Shown piece by piece: positions 28,350 to 37,982 of a DNA stretch of 38,887 bases (its first letter is position 1; every line of letters starts with the position of its first letter). Origin of the DNA: an uncultured beta proteobacterium (GTDB lineage: Bacteria; Pseudomonadota; Gammaproteobacteria; Burkholderiales; Burkholderiaceae_E); assembly GCA_903934295.1 (NCBI GenBank), contig CAIZNI010000013.1:1-38887 (forward strand), in the 5' to 3' direction. The translations under genes were made by a program, and so were the position numbers. The notes below the pieces were generated by a model. That model did no database searches and was not told the DNA's origin. It worked only from the letters and a program-made list of their open reading frames with translations.

Positions 28350-28520
28350 GCGGATCTCCGGGGGGAACGTGGACGGCCGTACCGGGCGTCGCCCATTGCA
28401 AAGGGTTGTCCATTATTCGTGACATTGTGATGCCCGGGTTTTCACTTCCTGATGTCTGACCGCCGGGCTCGGGCGGCCGGGTCCATGATCCTGCCTTCGT
28501 GGTCCGGCAAGGAGCAGCGG
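28350..28520. promoter_or_regulatory. Divergent intergenic region, presumed promoters
   Basis: This 171-bp gap separates the CoA-transferase on the minus strand from the oxidoreductase on the plus strand. A patch around 28395-28445 is more AT-rich than its surroundings (ATTATTCGTGACATTGTGAT), as expected for promoter DNA. I see no clear -35/-10 pair or operator. Confidence 0.3.
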
Positions 28521-29585
28521 GTGCGTGCAGTGGTGTGTCGCGAGTTGGGCAATGAAGCCGCGGTGACGGTTGAAACCGTGCCGGATCCGGTGGCCGGCGA
28601 ATCAGACGTGCGGATCGCGGTCTGCGCCAGCGGGGTGAGCCTCGCCAACCGGATGATGCTTGCGGGCACCTACCAGATCCGGCCGGATCTGCCCTTCGTT
28701 CCGGGCACCGAGGCCAGCGGGGTGGTGATCGGCTGCGGCGCGGCGGTGACGCGTTTTCGGCCGGGCGATCGGGTCACCACCGGCATCCGCCACGGCGGCT
28801 TCGCCGAACAGCTGATCGCGCCCGAACGCAATGTCTTTGCGATCCCCGACGCGATCGATCATCACGTCGCGATGCAGATTCCGATGGTCTACGGGACCGC
28901 CTACGGCGCGCTGAAGTGGCGGGCCCGGCTCGAAGCCGGCGAGACGGTGCTGGTGCACGGCGCGGTCGGGGACAGCGGCATGGCCGCCGTCGAGGTCGCC
29001 CGTTGCCTGGGCGGGCGTGTCATTGCCACCGCCACCACCGAGGCCAAGGCGGCCGCCTGTCGTCGTCATGGGGCCGACGTCGTCATCAACCTGTGGGAGC
29101 AGCCGTTTCGCGAAGCGGTGCTGGCGATGACCGAGGGACGGGGCGCCGATGTGGTTTTCGATCCGGTGGGCGGAGCGGTGTTCGCCGAATCGCTGCGGTG
29201 CATCGCCCCGGAGGGTCGCCTGGTGACCATGGGCTTTGTCAGCGGTGGCGTTCCCCAGGTGCCGGCGAACATCCTGCTGGTCAAGAATTTCGATGTGATC
29301 GGGGTCTACTGGGGTTACTACCTTGGCTGGGAGCGTGTCGCGCCGCGGCCCCGTCACCCGGACCGCGTTCGGTCGTCGATGGCGGAAATGCTCGCCTGGT
29401 GCGAGCATGGCCTGCTGCGCCCGGAAGTCTATGGGCGCTTTCGCCTCGACGATTTCCGCGCGGCGCTGGACGCGCTGGTCGATGCGAACATCATCGGCCG
29501 GGTGGCGCTGAGCCCGCTGACCGAGCCGCTGATCGAGCAGCAGCGGCTGGCGGCGCTGGCCGGCATCCCCATCACTCGCCCTTGA
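28521..29585 (+). CDS. Medium-chain (MDR) NADPH:quinone-oxidoreductase-like protein
   Basis: The protein has 354 residues. GTG at 28521 is preferred to the ATG at 28452 because AAGGAG (28509-28514) precedes it by six bases and the homologous core begins there (VRAVVCRELG). It resembles zinc-independent quinone oxidoreductases and enoyl reductases: the N-terminal GroES-like fold is followed by a cofactor loop VHGAVGDSGMAAVEVA, a variant of the usual GAAGGVG. The stretch ADVVFDPVGG is also typical. Zinc-ligand cysteines of alcohol dehydrogenases are absent. It probably reduces an enone or enoyl compound with NADPH. Its last 14 bases overlap the convergent enoyl-CoA hydratase gene. Confidence 0.88.
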   Translation: MRAVVCRELGNEAAVTVETVPDPVAGESDVRIAVCASGVSLANRMMLAGTYQIRPDLPFVPGTEASGVVIGCGAAVTRFRPGDRVTTGIRHGGFAEQLIAPERNVFAIPDAIDHHVAMQIPMVYGTAYGALKWRARLEAGETVLVHGAVGDSGMAAVEVARCLGGRVIATATTEAKAAACRRHGADVVINLWEQPFREAVLAMTEGRGADVVFDPVGGAVFAESLRCIAPEGRLVTMGFVSGGVPQVPANILLVKNFDVIGVYWGYYLGWERVAPRPRHPDRVRSSMAEMLAWCEHGLLRPEVYGRFRLDDFRAALDALVDANIIGRVALSPLTEPLIEQQRLAALAGIPITRP

Positions 29586-30393
29586 ACACCGCCGGCCGTT
29601 TCTCCAGGTAGCTGGCCACCCCCTCGCGGTGGTCGTCGGTGCGCGCCAGCCGGCGGATGGTGTCGATGGCCCAGCCGCCGATCTCGCGCGGATTGCCGTA
29701 GGCGGTGCGCTGCAGGCCGGTCTTGAGCGCCTGCACCGCGAGCGGCGGGTTGTCGGCGATCCGGCGCGCCAGCGCCAGCGCTTCGGTCATCAGTTGCTCA
29801 TGCGCGACCACCCGTCCGACCAGTCCGATCTGCAGGGCCTGCGCCGCGTCGATCAGATCGCCGGTGAACAGCAGTTCGGCCGCCTTCTCCGGCCCGACCA
29901 GCGCGGGCAGCCGGTAGAAACCGCCCACGTCGCAGACCAGTCCGCGCTTGACGAACATCTCCGAGAACTTCGCCCGGTCCGACGCCACCCGCAGATCGGC
30001 GAACAGGGCCAGTTCGACCCCCCAGCCGATCGCCGCGCCATTGACCGCGGCGATCACCGGCTTGCCGCATTCGAGCACCGCCATCGCGGCCGGGGTGGGC
30101 GGGTTGTGGATCACCGACTGCTTGCGCTGGGCGAGACCACCCTCGGGGCCGGCCATGATCTCGCCGACATCGTCGCCCGAGCAAAAGCCGGGATCGGCGC
30201 CGGTGACGATCACGCAGCGCACCGCCGGATCCTGATGCGCGTGGCGGAACGCCGACTCCAGTTCATCGTAGGCGCGCCAGTTCAGCGCGTTGCGGCGTTG
30301 CGGCCGGTTCAGCGTGACGGTCAGCACATGGTCGACCAGCGAATAGCCGGTGTGGATGAACGAGGGCGGGTCGATGAGAGCGGTCGATGTCAT
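29572..30393 (-). CDS. Enoyl-CoA hydratase/isomerase family protein
   Basis: The protein has 273 residues, with the ATG at 30393. The crotonase fold is clear: oxyanion-hole segments CSGDDVG (71-77) and NGAAIGWGVEL (118-128), with the first acidic residue Glu127 conserved. The position of the second catalytic glutamate of classical hydratases appears to be Phe147 (MFVKRG), while Asp155 in VCDVGG matches the aspartate of dienoyl-CoA isomerase-type members. It may therefore be an isomerase or a hydratase with altered chemistry; this alignment is by eye. It overlaps the MDR gene by 14 bases at their 3' ends and is the last gene of the catabolic island. Confidence 0.9.
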   Translation of the reverse strand: MTSTALIDPPSFIHTGYSLVDHVLTVTLNRPQRRNALNWRAYDELESAFRHAHQDPAVRCVIVTGADPGFCSGDDVGEIMAGPEGGLAQRKQSVIHNPPTPAAMAVLECGKPVIAAVNGAAIGWGVELALFADLRVASDRAKFSEMFVKRGLVCDVGGFYRLPALVGPEKAAELLFTGDLIDAAQALQIGLVGRVVAHEQLMTEALALARRIADNPPLAVQALKTGLQRTAYGNPREIGGWAIDTIRRLARTDDHREGVASYLEKRPAVFKGE

Positions 30394-30577
30394 GGCGCCG
30401 ATGTCCTGAGAAAGGGGGAGTGTCCTGGGGCCGGATTCAGGCCCAGCCCTCCTGCGGGCGCCGGATGAGCTGCACCTGATCGGGCTTGGCGATCCTACTA
30501 CGCCCCCGCCCGGGGCGGGCAGTGGCGCACGGCCGAGGGTATCCTGCGGGATCACATCGACCGCCCGCGGCAAGCGC

Positions 30578-31615
30578 ATGAGCCTATCTTCCGATCCGAT
30601 TCTGGCGGACACGCCGCGTTCGTCGAGTCCGCGCCGCGTTTTCCTTCTCGGGGCCACCGGCACCATCGGCCGGGCATGCGCACACGCGCTGGTGCGGCGC
30701 GGCCACGAGGTGGTCTGCTTCCTGCGGCCCCGCGCCGGGGTCGGAGGTGCGCTGGACCCCGACGACAGCGCCCGTCTGCTGGCGGGCGCCACCGTGCGCA
30801 TCGGCGAGGTGACGGACGCGCGATCGCTGGCACGTGACGGTTTCCGCGGTGAACGTTTCGATGTGCTCGTGTCGTGTCTGGCCTCGCGCACCGGCTCGCC
30901 CGCCGATGCCTGGGCGATCGATCACCAGGCGCATGTCCACGCCCTGGCCGCCGCGCGCCGCGCCGGGGTCTCGCAGGCGGTCCAGCTCTCGGCGATCTGC
31001 GTGCAAAAGCCGGTCCTTGCGTTTCAGCAGGCCAAGCTCGCCTTCGAGCAGGAACTGATCGCTTCCGGGCTGACCTACTCGATCGTGCGCCCGACCGCTT
31101 TCTTCAAGTCGCTGTCCGGACAGCTCGATCGGCTGCGCCGCGGCAAGTCCTTCCTGGTGTTCGGTGACGGCACGCTGACCGCCTGCAAGCCGATCAGCGA
31201 CCGCGACCTGGGCGAGTACCTGGCCGGTTGCCTCGATGACCCGGCTCGCCAGAATCGTGTGCTGCCGATCGGCGGACCCGGCGCGGCCGTCACACCGCGT
31301 CAGCAGGGCGAGCAGCTGTTCACCCTGATGGGCCGCGAGCCCCGCTTCACGCAGGTGCCGGTGGCCCTGCTCGACGGCATCATCGCGGCGCTGTCGACAC
31401 TCGGTCGCGTGGTGCCTGCCCTGGCGGAAAAGGCCGAACTCGCCCGCATCGGGCGCTATTACGCCACCGAGTCGATGCTGGTGCTCAACCCCTCGACCGG
31501 CCGTTACGACGAGGCCGCCACGCCTTCAGCGGGCACCGACACGCTCTTCGATTTCTATGCGCAGCTGGTGAGCGGGCAGGCGCGCGTCGAGCGCGGCGAT
31601 CACGCGGTGTTCTGA
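30578..31615 (+). CDS. bciA: Divinyl (bacterio)chlorophyllide a 8-vinyl-reductase, BciA-type
   Basis: The 345-residue protein is an extended SDR/NmrA-like NAD(P)H-binding protein with the cofactor motif GATGTIG at residues 25-31. Long stretches match the BciA/DVR family as I know it: SCLASRTGSPADAWAID, LSAICVQKPVL, SGLTYSIVRPTAFFKSLSG, FGDGTLTACKPISDRDL, LPIGGPG, and the C-terminal ESMLVLNP and TPSAGTDTLFDFY. BciA reduces the C8 vinyl group of divinyl (proto)chlorophyllide a with NADPH in chlorophyll and bacteriochlorophyll synthesis. No other bch, puf or crt gene is in the window, so it stands alone here. The ribosome-binding site is weak. A related non-photosynthetic reductase cannot be excluded, but the motif agreement is strong. 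Confidence 0.82.
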   Translation: MSLSSDPILADTPRSSSPRRVFLLGATGTIGRACAHALVRRGHEVVCFLRPRAGVGGALDPDDSARLLAGATVRIGEVTDARSLARDGFRGERFDVLVSCLASRTGSPADAWAIDHQAHVHALAAARRAGVSQAVQLSAICVQKPVLAFQQAKLAFEQELIASGLTYSIVRPTAFFKSLSGQLDRLRRGKSFLVFGDGTLTACKPISDRDLGEYLAGCLDDPARQNRVLPIGGPGAAVTPRQQGEQLFTLMGREPRFTQVPVALLDGIIAALSTLGRVVPALAEKAELARIGRYYATESMLVLNPSTGRYDEAATPSAGTDTLFDFYAQLVSGQARVERGDHAVF

Positions 31616-31664: not shown

Positions 31665-32300
31665 TCAACTCGGCTTGACCCAGGTGTACACCCGCATCGG
31701 CGGCAGGTTCCACAGCTCCCACTCCTGCCGCGGTTCGCCCAGGTGAGGCGTGGTGCGCTCGGCCACGCTCGGTGTCCACTGATAGGCCACGAAGCGCCCG
31801 CCCGGCGCGAGGCATCGGGCGATCGCGGCGGCAATCCGCTCGCCCGTCGCTGCCGGCATCGTCGAAAACGGAATGCCCGACACGATGGCATCGGGCGCCG
31901 GAAGACGGTGCGCCGCGAGGTGCTCGGCGAGGTCCTCGGCGCTGCCGCACTCGGCGCGCAGGCGCGGATCCGGAATGTGCCGGCACAGGTGGGCATGGAA
32001 GGCGGGGTTCATCTCGATGGCGAGCAGCCGCGAGCGCGGCCCCATCCGTCCGAGCAGCGTGCGCGTGCTGCCGCCGGTACCCGGCCCGAGTTCGACCACG
32101 CAGGCAGCCTCGCCCACTTTGGCCTGGCGGGCGACCCGTTCGATCAGCCGATTCGAACTCGGCACGATGGAGGCGGTACGGCGTGGGTGGCCGAGGAAGG
32201 CCTTGAAGAATTCGACCGCGTCGGCAAGGGCGTTGGCCGCCGGCATCGGTCGGGTGGAGTCCGCGGTTCTGGATGAGGCCTGTTTGTCGACGGGGGGCAT
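31665..32300 (-). CDS. Class I SAM-dependent methyltransferase, phospholipid N-methyltransferase (PmtA)-like
   Basis: The protein has 211 residues. The ATG at 32300 has AGGAG five bases upstream (32306-32310), so further upstream in-frame starts are rejected. The SAM motif VVELGPGTGGSTRTLL begins at residue 68 and a second acidic motif LLAIEMNP follows. The segment SGIPFSTMP and the late WNLPPMRVYTW resemble PmtA-type phosphatidylethanolamine N-methyltransferases and rRNA-adenine-dimethylase-like proteins. It probably methylates a phospholipid head group (inferred from family). It is convergent with bciA and divergent from the SDR at 32631; a functional link to bciA is not evident. Confidence 0.78.
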   Translation of the reverse strand: MPPVDKQASSRTADSTRPMPAANALADAVEFFKAFLGHPRRTASIVPSSNRLIERVARQAKVGEAACVVELGPGTGGSTRTLLGRMGPRSRLLAIEMNPAFHAHLCRHIPDPRLRAECGSAEDLAEHLAAHRLPAPDAIVSGIPFSTMPAATGERIAAAIARCLAPGGRFVAYQWTPSVAERTTPHLGEPRQEWELWNLPPMRVYTWVKPS

Positions 32301-32630
32301 TCTGGCTCCTGAAAAGTGCATCGTCGTCGAAGGAGATGACGAGATCATCACAGCAGACACCTGGTGGCCGGGAGATGACCCTGGTGCGGGGAGCGTTGTG
32401 AAAGCCTCGGTTTGCAGCGCGCCGCCCGGTGTGCGCACCCACCCGGAGTCGGGTCCCGCGGTCCGGATTTCGCGCGATGCGGCTGTCCTGCCTGTCGCGG
32501 GTCCGCTGCGCCATGGGACACTTCCGGCTCCCAGACACAAGCAGTCGGCTGGCGACCCCTTCGCCACCCGCGCAGCGCCGGCCGGCGCCGCGCGTTTCGC
32601 GCACTCACAGCACCCACGGAGACAGCAACC
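32301..32630. other. 330-bp divergent intergenic region
   Basis: This gap between the methyltransferase and SDR starts must hold both promoters. A small inverted repeat GATGA-N5-TCATC lies at 32335-32349, 35 bases upstream of the methyltransferase start, and could be a regulator site. No coding sequence with a plausible ribosome-binding site was found, although both strands are open here in frame with the flanking genes. Confidence 0.45.
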
Positions 32631-33413
32631 ATGATAATTGACGCAACCACCAGCGCGGTCGTGACCGGCGGCGCTTCCGGCCTGGGCAGAGCCGCCGCCG
32701 AGGCGCTGGCCGCCGCCGGGGTCAAGGTCGCCATTTTTGATGTGAACGAAGCCAAGGGCGAGGAAGTCGCCCAGTCCATCGGCGGCCTGTTCTGCAAGGT
32801 CGACATCAACAGCGAGGAAAGCGTCGTCGCCGGCTTCGCCAAGGCGCGCGCCGCGCTCGGGCAGGAGCGGATCCTGGTCCACTGCGCGATGACCTCGCGG
32901 CGCGGCAAGACACTGGCCTTCGACAAGGCCGCCGGGCGGCTCAAGCGCCTGCCTACCGCCGAGTACGAGATCGGCGTGCAGGGCGTGCTGATTGCCAGCT
33001 ATCGGCTGGCTTCGCTCGCGGCCGAGGGCATGGCGACGCTGGCGCCGCTGGAAGACGGCGAGCGCGGCTGCATCACGCTGACCGCCTCGGTGGCCGCCCA
33101 GGATGGCCAGATCGGCCAGGTGATCTACGGTTCGGCCAAGGCGGGCGTGAACGGGCTGGTCCTGCCCATGGCACGCGATCTGTCCGACATCGGCATCCGC
33201 GTGAATTCGATCATGCCCGGCATCTTCGCCACGCCGCTGATGATGGGCGCCGCGCAGCCGGTGCTCGACAGCTTGAGCGCCTCGGTGCCTTTCCCGAAGC
33301 GGCTGGGCAAGCCGGAAGAGTTCGGCAGCCTGTCGCTCGAACTGGTGCGCAATTCCTATTTCAACGGGCAGTGCATCCGCCTGGACGGCGCGATCCGGAT
33401 GGCGCCGCGCTGA
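32631..33413 (+). CDS. SDR family protein, type II 3-hydroxyacyl-CoA dehydrogenase-like
   Basis: The protein has 260 residues. The ATG at 32631 has GGAGA eight bases upstream. The cofactor motif TGGASGLG is at 12-19 and Asp37 in IFDVNE suggests NAD. The catalytic residues are Ser153, Tyr166 and Lys170. The usual NNAG is replaced by HCAM, an atypical form. The overall pattern (TASVAAQDGQIGQVIYGSAKAG, RVNSIMPGIFATPLM) resembles type II 3-hydroxyacyl-CoA dehydrogenases (HSD17B10-like). It probably oxidises a 3-hydroxyacyl-CoA in beta-oxidation, and could complete the acyl-CoA steps of the island to its left. Confidence 0.87.
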   Translation: MIIDATTSAVVTGGASGLGRAAAEALAAAGVKVAIFDVNEAKGEEVAQSIGGLFCKVDINSEESVVAGFAKARAALGQERILVHCAMTSRRGKTLAFDKAAGRLKRLPTAEYEIGVQGVLIASYRLASLAAEGMATLAPLEDGERGCITLTASVAAQDGQIGQVIYGSAKAGVNGLVLPMARDLSDIGIRVNSIMPGIFATPLMMGAAQPVLDSLSASVPFPKRLGKPEEFGSLSLELVRNSYFNGQCIRLDGAIRMAPR

Positions 33414-33420
33414 AGCCCGG

Positions 33421-34904: not shown

Positions 34905-34979
34905 TGGTGGGCGGCACAGGGTTCGAACCTGTGACCCCTGCCGTGTGAAGGCAGTGCTCTACCGCTGAGCTAGCCGCCC
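34905..34979 (-). tRNA. tRNA-Val (anticodon CAC)
   Basis: The 75-base gene folds as a cloverleaf on the minus strand. The acceptor stem GGGCGGC pairs with GCCGCCC, the D-arm is AGCTCAGCGGTAGAGC, the anticodon stem CTGCC/GGCAG holds loop TTCACAC (anticodon CAC, reading GUG), and the T-arm has GGTTCGAACC-type sequence. The CCA end is encoded (34905-34907). An intrinsic terminator follows. No integrase or repeated 3' end marks it as an integration site. Confidence 0.97.
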
Positions 34980-35084
34980 GAGCAAGAGCAAGATTGTAGC
35001 CGATTTGCTGGCGAAGAAAAGCGGGGCGCGGGATAATTCTTCCCCGCCAGCCGGCGGGTCATCGCCTTTGCCCCGAGCGTGCCC

Positions 35085-37982
35085 ATGAAGACCGAGAACA
35101 TCGCCGCCGCCCTGCCCGAGCAGGAAGTCACCCTGGACGTGCTGCTCGAGAAGTACGCCAAGAACGACGAGCGCACCCCGCGCGACATCCGGTTGCGGGT
35201 GGCGCGGGCCCTGGCGTCCAACGAGCCGGCGCCTGATCGCGAGCGCTGGCAGGCGGACTACCTCTGGGCGCTGGAAAACGGATTCGTGCCGGCCGGGCGC
35301 ATCAACTCGGCGGCCGGCACCGACATCGCCGCCACCCTGATCAACTGTTTCGTGCAGCCGATCGGCGACGCCGTCTGGGGCTATGGTCCCGACGGCACCC
35401 CGGGCATCTACGCCGCGCTGCAGGAGGCGGCCGAGACCATGCGCCGCGGTGGGGGTGTCGGTTACGACTTCTCGTCGATCCGCCCCAGCGGGGCGCTGGT
35501 GCACGGCACACAGTCGCGCGCCTCCGGGCCTGTCTCCTACATGCGGGTGTTCGACAAGTCCTGCGAGACCCTCGAGTCGGCCGGCGCGCGGCGCGGTGCA
35601 CAGATGGGCGTCCTGCGGATCGACCACCCGGATGTCGAGGCCTTCATCCACGCCAAGCGCGACGGCTCGCTCACCAATTTCAACACCTCGGTCGCGGTCA
35701 CCGACACCTTCATGCGCGCGGTCGAGGAGGACGCGATGTTCGAGCTGGTGCATGTGGCCGAGCCCTTCGAGGCGGGCGCCTCGCATCGGCGCGAGGACGG
35801 TCAGTGGGTGTACCGCTGCGTGCCGGCGCGCCAGTTGTGGGACCAGATCATGCGGTCCACCTACAACCACGCGGAACCGGGCGTGATCTTCATCGACCGG
35901 GTCAACCGCGACAACAACCTGTCCTACTGCGAGCACATCGCCGCGACCAATCCCTGCGGCGAACAGGCGTTACCGCCTTACGGCTGCTGCGACCTCGGCT
36001 CGCTCAACCTCACCAGCTTCGTCGGCAATCCGTTCGGCGAGGCGCCCACCGTCGACTGGGAGCGCTTTCAGCGGGTGGTCCGAATCGCGGTGCGGGCGCT
36101 CGACAACGTGCTCGATCTGACGCTGTGGCCGCTGCAGGCCCAGGCCCGCGAGGCGCAGGCCAAGCGGCGCATCGGACTGGGCTTCACCGGCCTGGGCAAT
36201 GCGCTCACCATGCTCAAGCTGCGCTACGACTCCGATGCCGGGCGCGAGATGGCGGCCCGCTTCGCCGGCACGATGCGCGACACCGCCTATGCGGCATCGG
36301 TGGGGCTGGCGCGCGAGCGTGGCGCCTTCGCGCTGTTCGATGCCGACCGCTACCTGGCCGAGCCGCACGCGGCCTCGCGCCTGCCGGAGTCCATCAAGCG
36401 CGAGATCCGCAGCCACGGCATCCGCAATTCGCACCTGATGTCGGTGGCGCCCACCGGCACCATCTCGATCGCCTTCGCCGGCAACGCTTCGGGCGGCATC
36501 GAGCCCGCCTTCTCGTTCACTTACACCCGCAAGAAGCGCATGCCGGACGGCTCGCGCCGCGAGTACCAGGTCGAGGACTACGCCTATCGGCTGTACCGCC
36601 ACCTGGGCGGCGATCCGGCCCACCTGCCCGACTATTTCGTGTCGGCCATGCAGATCCCGGCCATGGACCACATGCGCATGAGCGCGGCGGTGCAGCCCTT
36701 CGTCGACTCGGCCATCAGCAAGACGGTCAACGTCGACGAGCACTACCCCTACGAAGATTTCCAGGCCCTGTACCTGGAGGCCTGGCGCGCCGGGCTCAAG
36801 GGCATCACCACCTACCGGCCCAACGCGGTGATCGGCTCGGTGCTCAGCGTCGGTCCGTCCGCGCCGGCCCAGCCGTCGCCGATCATGCCCCAGGACCTGC
36901 AGCACGACGCCGATCGCCGGCTGCGCCTGGACACCGTGCCGCAGCCGGCGCTGGCCTCGCTGCGCTGGCCGGGACGCCCGCGCCTGGCGGCCGGCAATCT
37001 GGCCTGGTCATACATGATCGAGCCGGCCGATGGCCGTTCGTCGTTCGCGATCTTCATCGGTCAGACCGAGGAGGCGCCGGCAGGCGAGGGCGCAGGCCGG
37101 GTCGCGCGCACCGTTCCCTTCGAGACCTGGGTCAACGGCAACGAGCAGCCGCGCGGTCTGGGCGCGATCGCCAAGGCGCTGTCGATGGACATGCGTTCGA
37201 ACGACCGCGCCTGGCTGCGCCTGAAGCTCGATGTGCTGGCGGCGACCCGCGACGAACTGCCTTTGCGCCTGCCGTTTCCGCCTGAGGGCGAGTTGCTGAA
37301 CAAGCCCGGCATCGTGGCGGCCTTCGCCGACATCGTGCGCTATCGCTGCGAGCAGCTCGGCGTGTTCGAGGCCGTCGAGGAGCAGCCCACGCCGATGATC
37401 GACGCGATGATCTTCCGCGCCGAGCCCAAGTCGGGTCCGCTGGGCACGCTGTCGTGGACCGCCGACATCGTCAATGCCGCCACCGGCGATGATTTCGTGC
37501 TCGGGGTCAAGGAGCTGCAGTTGCCCGACGGTTCGCGCCGGCCCTACTCGATCTGGCTGGCCGGCGACTATCCGCGGGTCCTGGACGGCCTGTGCAAGCT
37601 GCTGTCACTGGACATGCGGGTGATCGATGTGAGCTGGGTGGGTCTGAAGCTGCGCAAGCTGCTGTCGTTCGGCGAGCTCAACGGTTCGTTCTGGGCACAG
37701 GTGCCGGGCGCGGCGCGCCAGCAGGTCTGGCCGAGCACGGTGGCCTACCTTGCCGCGCTCATCCTGCATCGCTACACGGTGCTGGGCCTGCTCGACGCCG
37801 AGGGCCATGCGATCGGTGGCGTGGGTGCGCTGGCCTCGCCCGAACCGGCGCGCCCCGGCGAGCCGCCGCGCGCCGCGATCGTGGCCGGGCTGCCTTGTCC
37901 GGCCTGCGGCGCCCATGCCTACATCCGCAAGGACGGTTGCCAGTTCTGCACCGCCTGCGGCCATCAGGGCGAGTGCGGCTAG
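35085..37982 (+). CDS. nrdJ: Adenosylcobalamin-dependent (class II) ribonucleoside-diphosphate reductase
   Basis: The protein has 965 residues from the ATG at 35085; a GTG two codons upstream is a possible alternative. It converts ribonucleotides to deoxyribonucleotides with an AdoCbl radical. Visible catalytic elements are Cys88 (NCFVQP), Asn289-Cys291-Glu293 in NPCGEQ and Cys301/Cys302 in YGCCDLGS. PTGTISIAFAGNASGGIEP is also typical. Beyond residue 600 there are two TSCPD-like repeats (each with an ALSMDMR/LLSLDMR core). A C-terminal cysteine cluster follows (Cys938, 941, 952, 955, 958 and 964), likely a zinc ribbon that re-reduces the active site. The gap to the divergent tRNA is about 105 bp, with no room for a typical B12 riboswitch. 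Confidence 0.95.
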   Translation: MKTENIAAALPEQEVTLDVLLEKYAKNDERTPRDIRLRVARALASNEPAPDRERWQADYLWALENGFVPAGRINSAAGTDIAATLINCFVQPIGDAVWGYGPDGTPGIYAALQEAAETMRRGGGVGYDFSSIRPSGALVHGTQSRASGPVSYMRVFDKSCETLESAGARRGAQMGVLRIDHPDVEAFIHAKRDGSLTNFNTSVAVTDTFMRAVEEDAMFELVHVAEPFEAGASHRREDGQWVYRCVPARQLWDQIMRSTYNHAEPGVIFIDRVNRDNNLSYCEHIAATNPCGEQALPPYGCCDLGSLNLTSFVGNPFGEAPTVDWERFQRVVRIAVRALDNVLDLTLWPLQAQAREAQAKRRIGLGFTGLGNALTMLKLRYDSDAGREMAARFAGTMRDTAYAASVGLARERGAFALFDADRYLAEPHAASRLPESIKREIRSHGIRNSHLMSVAPTGTISIAFAGNASGGIEPAFSFTYTRKKRMPDGSRREYQVEDYAYRLYRHLGGDPAHLPDYFVSAMQIPAMDHMRMSAAVQPFVDSAISKTVNVDEHYPYEDFQALYLEAWRAGLKGITTYRPNAVIGSVLSVGPSAPAQPSPIMPQDLQHDADRRLRLDTVPQPALASLRWPGRPRLAAGNLAWSYMIEPADGRSSFAIFIGQTEEAPAGEGAGRVARTVPFETWVNGNEQPRGLGAIAKALSMDMRSNDRAWLRLKLDVLAATRDELPLRLPFPPEGELLNKPGIVAAFADIVRYRCEQLGVFEAVEEQPTPMIDAMIFRAEPKSGPLGTLSWTADIVNAATGDDFVLGVKELQLPDGSRRPYSIWLAGDYPRVLDGLCKLLSLDMRVIDVSWVGLKLRKLLSFGELNGSFWAQVPGAARQQVWPSTVAYLAALILHRYTVLGLLDAEGHAIGGVGALASPEPARPGEPPRAAIVAGLPCPACGAHAYIRKDGCQFCTACGHQGECG

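Follow-up and report, generated by a model that had tools for sequence, protein, structure and literature searches.

BciA is described as an 8-vinyl reductase that requires NADPH and prefers 8-vinyl chlorophyllide (PMC4214422, PMC7242693), and the same reaction is ascribed to two proteins unrelated to it, namely BciB and chlorophyllide oxidoreductase (COR, including BchX) (PMC7242693). A PF13460 Rossmann fold and a GxxGxxG motif are given as the marks of BciA, both being reported for the proteins of Rhodobacter sphaeroides (rsp_3070) and Chlorobaculum tepidum (ct_1063) (PMC3931815). The BciA of Acaryochloris marina (AM1_2394), a cyanobacterium with chlorophyll d that also possesses BciB, was tested by complementation in a report that prints seven of its peptides (PMC4836224). 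According to that report, all known bacteriochlorophyll a phototrophs except Roseiflexus contain bciA (PMC4836224); Roseiflexus is elsewhere described as a case without BciA and BciB (PMC4214422), and some purple bacteria are reported to have BciB (PMC7242693). COR is also described as capable of 8-vinyl reduction, and since it performs the same step, R. sphaeroides deleted for bciA continues to produce bacteriochlorophyll a (PMC4331041, PMC4432870), growing at about the wild-type rate (PMC4331041).

The window analysed here, a stretch of 38,887 nucleotides, belongs to a contig of 252 kb (C13) in a 4.6 Mb genome of 72 contigs, which is 98.5% complete with 0.03% contamination. It carries an open reading frame, intact from its ATG to its stop codon, whose product is a BciA-type protein (Table 1). 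The Pfam matches of this protein were NAD_binding_10 (PF13460, E 1.9e-17), Epimerase and, slightly below its cut-off, NmrA. Like rsp_3070 and ct_1063, it thus has both marks of BciA, the PF13460 Rossmann fold and GxxGxxG, and a match to PF04432, as would befit a BciB, was not among its Pfam matches. No functional difference from rsp_3070 and ct_1063 is known, the neighbourhood alone being different; the Rhodobacter sequence compared was the copy of Rhodobacter sp. CZR27. Identity to 30 aligned relatives was 62-78%, with conserved motifs and with G25, G28 and G31 invariant across the 31 aligned sequences. The start codon is uncertain, since for 49 of 80 relatives (the best 80 of 334 places) the aligned region starts no earlier than residue 12.

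Table 1. Coordinates of bciA, its conserved segments and nearby features in the window
Feature	Position	Strand	Remarks
bciA, predicted NADPH-dependent 8-vinyl reductase	30578..31615	+	345 aa, stop codon included in coordinates
GxxGxxG nucleotide-binding motif GATGTIG, residues 25-31	30650..30670	+	alignment; motif given for BciA in PMC3931815
RPTAFFKSL segment, residues 171-179	31088..31114	+	overlaps strongest A. marina peptide match (residues 162-177)
C-terminal ERGDHAVF, residues 338-345	31589..31612	+	A. marina BciA terminus is ERGDFAVF
Zinc alcohol dehydrogenase/quinone reductase	28452..29585		
Methyltransferase	31665..32549	-	
SDR gene	~32606..33419		
tRNA-Val	34905..34979	-	
Frame adjoining tRNA-Val	35079..37982	+	967 aa

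No model in the Pfam or NCBIfam libraries searched gives the protein the name BciA, the NCBIfam search yielding a single weak SDR match far under its cut-off, and its relatives among solved structures, pinoresinol reductase and SimC7 for example, are all remote. The name is therefore owed to homologues and to the published peptides of A. marina BciA. Four of the seven peptides matched the window protein above the best of 1000 shuffles (13/16, 10/16 at the C-terminus, 8/12 and 8/12 residues), while the remaining three gave no match above shuffled sequence. Ten controls were used, comprising nine related whole frames from family genomes and one Acaryochloris plasmid protein. Three peptides discriminated the window protein from all of them (13/16 versus at most 7, 10/16 versus at most 5 and 8/12 versus at most 4 residues); the glycine-motif peptide did not, three of the ten controls matching it equally well or better. 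Via these peptides, and not via full sequences, the window protein matches a functionally tested BciA and not the paralogues.

In a tree of 102 rows, 97 of them BciA and four paralogues, the window protein was placed with the former, with a weak split support of 51, and its own row fell in an unresolved part. This tree was built by a quick method, has long outgroup branches and holds no full-length characterised BciA among its rows; its input omits one split fragment, L036, along with exact duplicates, and includes one protein (L149) as the whole annotated protein. The latter, from plasmid pMB02 of Acaryochloris sp. 'Moss Beach' (L149:2596-3543), was considered as a BciA anchor and rejected, being another protein with 26% identity. 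It is an NAD(P)H-binding protein adjoining Rieske and PaO-family genes, and is perhaps another chlorophyll-related reductase.

The surroundings of the gene are of a different kind. Between 26.0 and 34.8 kb, eight neighbouring proteins, all scanned against Pfam and seven of them also against NCBIfam, were of the following types: acyl-CoA dehydrogenase, CoA-transferase, zinc alcohol dehydrogenase/quinone reductase, enoyl-CoA hydratase, methyltransferase, SDR, S4 and thioesterase. The zinc dehydrogenase scored just 36.3 bits against the BchC model TIGR01202 (cut-off 291), far below the 208.6 bits of its best match, PIG3 quinone reductase. A tblastn search at E 1e-8 with 39 proteins, many genes being represented twice, from two species, found no photosynthesis-cluster genes in the window and the next 23 kb of C13, and positions 29901-31000 contained no PpsR-like TGT-N12-ACA site. 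The sequence-only reading had described a BciA-type 8-vinyl reductase standing beside non-photosynthetic genes, and both parts of this description hold. Some of these neighbours deserve a comment of their own. The methyltransferase resembles the ornithine-lipid/phospholipid N-methyltransferases OlsG and PmtA, with scores far under curated cut-offs, and the 967-aa frame that adjoins the tRNA-Val gene is presumably similar to a cobalamin-dependent ribonucleotide reductase.

Acyl-CoA, CoA-transfer and redox genes as neighbours, together with the many functions spanned by the wider PF13460 and NmrA-like superfamily, would suit a BciA homologue repurposed as an NAD(P)H-dependent reductase of some other substrate, for example in fatty or aromatic acid metabolism. 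The sequence-only reading had set this possibility beside that of a phototroph with its photosynthesis cluster elsewhere, and the rest of the genome speaks for the phototroph. Contig C22 (75 kb) encodes proteins of the PufL (E 1.5e-106) and PufM (E 9.4e-96) types, BchL (447.8 bits, cut-off 345.15) and BchX (415.3 bits, cut-off 331.2). At 34.1-58.4 kb of this contig are bchP, a BCD-family transporter gene, bchG, ppsR, ppaA/aerR, bchF, bchN, bchB and bchH, as well as bchL, bchM, lhaA, puhA, puhB, puhC, acsF and puhE; TspO, hemA and idi, which were also among the queries, had no match on C22. From its bch, puf, puh and acsF genes, the host is predicted to make (bacterio)chlorophyll. AcsF, the oxygen-dependent cyclase, would agree with an aerobic phototroph, judging from its gene. 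The genome that carries the window thus holds the bch, puf and acsF genes, and the protein lies among the BciA rows of the tree, with a weakly supported split from the paralogues.

Because C13 and C22 are separate contigs, their membership in one genome rests on binning and composition. In a genome of 72 contigs, the window and the cluster could in principle come from different organisms, which we regard as highly improbable given the reported contamination of 0.03% and the likeness of the two in composition. GC content is 0.698 in the window and 0.695 in C22, and the tetranucleotide correlation between them is 0.995, whereas stretches taken from two other bacteria gave 0.960 and 0.939. The window is also recognised in its genus: the region of the SDR gene has counterparts of 81-84% DNA identity in six of nine genus mates, which again argues against an artefact of binning, as does the co-occurrence of BciA and PufLM in relatives described below. 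The enoyl-CoA hydratase matches five of the nine at 78-82%.

We are therefore almost certain that the window contains an ordinary bciA of a phototroph, probably betaproteobacterial, the photosynthesis cluster of which lies elsewhere in the genome. In such an organism, BciA would bind NADPH via its N-terminal Rossmann fold and reduce to ethyl the vinyl group that 8-vinyl chlorophyllide (or 8-vinyl protochlorophyllide) carries at C8. This step would precede the reduction of ring B by BchXYZ (COR), toward bacteriochlorophyll a as the likely pigment. We infer that BciA and COR form the expected pair in the window organism. Compared with the other proteins that perform this reaction, the window genome has BchX and, in contrast to A. 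marina with its BciB, contains no PF04432 match.

How closely BciA tracks photosynthesis can be seen in the family. Among 74 family genomes, 22 had a BciA orthologue, called by a match of at least 120 bits to the window protein (the rest, at or below 33.4 bits, were dropped as paralogues), and 27 had PufLM. Both occurred together in 20 genomes, BciA alone in two (G033 and G035) and PufLM alone in seven, and the other 45 genomes lacked both (Fisher p 2.7e-10, in a test that ignores relatedness); one BciA-positive genome (G042) was scored from two contig-end pieces, one with an internal stop. As for the two with BciA alone, G033 contains BchX above the cut-off, and G035 is 78% complete, its BchX- and BchL-like sequences being just short contig-end pieces. 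Among 80 named genomes that carry a close BciA (the best 80 of 334 confirmed places, hence the closest relatives and not a random sample), PufLM was found in 74, namely 37 of 40 in each of two halves. The two samples overlap (e.g., L074/G033 and L075/G034), so their counts are not independent. Three of the six named carriers without PufLM hold BchL, over the cut-off in L074 and L121 and in pieces in L076, where two contig-end pieces score just or well below it. No credible BchL, and likewise no PufLM, was present in L059 (Rhizobacter), L105 (a Lysobacterales bin) and L130 (a Thermomicrobiales bin). These three carriers out of 80 would count in favour of a repurposed homologue; we suspect that gaps or mis-binning lie behind the missing photosynthesis genes in these metagenome bins.

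Taken with the cluster in the window genome itself, the fact that relatives at such identity mostly occur with photosynthesis genes leaves a repurposed homologue with very little credit. The gene is not an orphan, and its product is most unlikely to be a repurposed enzyme; the gene belongs to an already known kind and is correctly recognised as such. Finding bciA by itself may also be taken as a reasonable indication that the organism is phototrophic. As a separate observation, proteobacterial-like bciA genes occur in bins of other lineages, namely L130:3043-4050 (Thermomicrobiales), L105:2762-3724 (Lysobacterales) and L077:1234-2229 (Anaerolineae), the last of which holds PufLM as well; either mis-binning or transfer could have placed them there.

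The sequence-only reading had treated the isolation of the gene as odd, but among the relatives examined it is not. Only four of the 80 bciA loci (the best 80 of 334 places) had clear photosynthesis-cluster genes in their flanks: bchP and the BCD transporter in L107, bchG in L090, bchX (87%) in L102 and a reaction-centre protein (92%) in L067, the percentages being identities to the window genome's own proteins. Further matches in L116 and L108, at 34-39%, were unconvincing. Only 37 of the 80 loci had flanks reaching 7.5 kb or more to either side (49 had 3 kb or more), so some linkage may be missed. Standing apart from the photosynthesis cluster is a common arrangement among the 80 relatives examined. 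It recurs in Rhodobacter sp. CZR27, whose BciA is 72.7% identical to the window protein. There, a replicon of 860 kb carries bciA, with a sorbosone dehydrogenase family gene on one side and genes of aromatic degradation on the other. The plasmid gene table, which is incomplete, lists neither bch nor puf within 8 kb of it, and a search for BchL at E 1e-60 matched ten plasmid records, of which this replicon is not one. We take bciA of R. sphaeroides to be likewise outside of its photosynthesis cluster. The linked loci L102 and L067 belong to Xylophilus sp. ASV27 and to a Hydrogenophaga bin, with bciA within about 8 kb of photosynthesis genes.

The neighbours themselves are not a constant company of the gene. 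None of the 80 bciA loci held any of nine window neighbours in its flanks (at least 40% identity, E 1e-10 or better), which led us to reject a conserved operon around bciA. Four stretches of 7 to 14 kb from genus mates, surrounding the enoyl-CoA hydratase, likewise contained none of the other window neighbours. Since the nine are never found beside bciA in the 80 relatives, they give no functional hint, and the acyl-CoA and redox surroundings lose their weight as an argument for repurposing.

A true bciA might nevertheless be idle or redundant, as COR also reduces the 8-vinyl group. The BchX above its cut-off in the window genome, the R. sphaeroides deletion mutant that keeps bacteriochlorophyll a and about wild-type growth (PMC4331041) and three family phototrophs that lack both BciA and a BciB-like gene all point in this direction. 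We nonetheless consider it unlikely, as the frame is intact, its motifs are conserved, and BciA is kept in 20 of the 27 family phototrophs, with a BciB-like gene in four of the other seven. Such retention suggests selection for a dedicated reductase, although the absence of BciA from seven of the 27 means that the gene is not indispensable.

By BciB-like we mean a match to PF04432 alone, which could also come from other FrhB-like proteins; this domain (FrhB/FdhB C-terminal) is the Pfam domain of BciB. It was found in five of the 74 family genomes, four being BciA-less phototrophs (G009, G013, G040 and G041) and one lacking PufLM (G060). None of the 22 BciA genomes had it, and in none of the 74 did BciA and a BciB-like gene occur together. 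The PufLM genomes with neither are G001, G023 and G048, the last 75% complete; BchX exceeded the cut-off in G001 and G023. In these three, the 8-vinyl group may be reduced by COR, or bacteriochlorophyll b may be made.

Variation of this sort reaches into the genus of the window. PufLM occurs in just two of its nine genus mates, G023 and G029, and BciA in G029 alone, on a 3.6 kb contig, so that one phototroph of the genus carries a bciA just 65% identical to that of the window and another carries none. It is tempting to suppose that the 8-vinyl reductase is an interchangeable part in this family, exchanged independently of the photosynthesis cluster, with BciA, BciB or neither in its place. We put this forward tentatively, as an idea that could well turn out otherwise. 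If it is true, the genomes with neither depend on COR by itself or produce bacteriochlorophyll b. The distribution seen in the family provides natural test cases for whether 8-vinyl reduction can be supplied by COR alone. Two loci from genomes with neither reductase are G001:C1:78658-85199 and G023:C192:41452-47968, and the BciB-like loci of BciA-less phototrophs are L046, L047, L048 and G013:C487:12352-12774.
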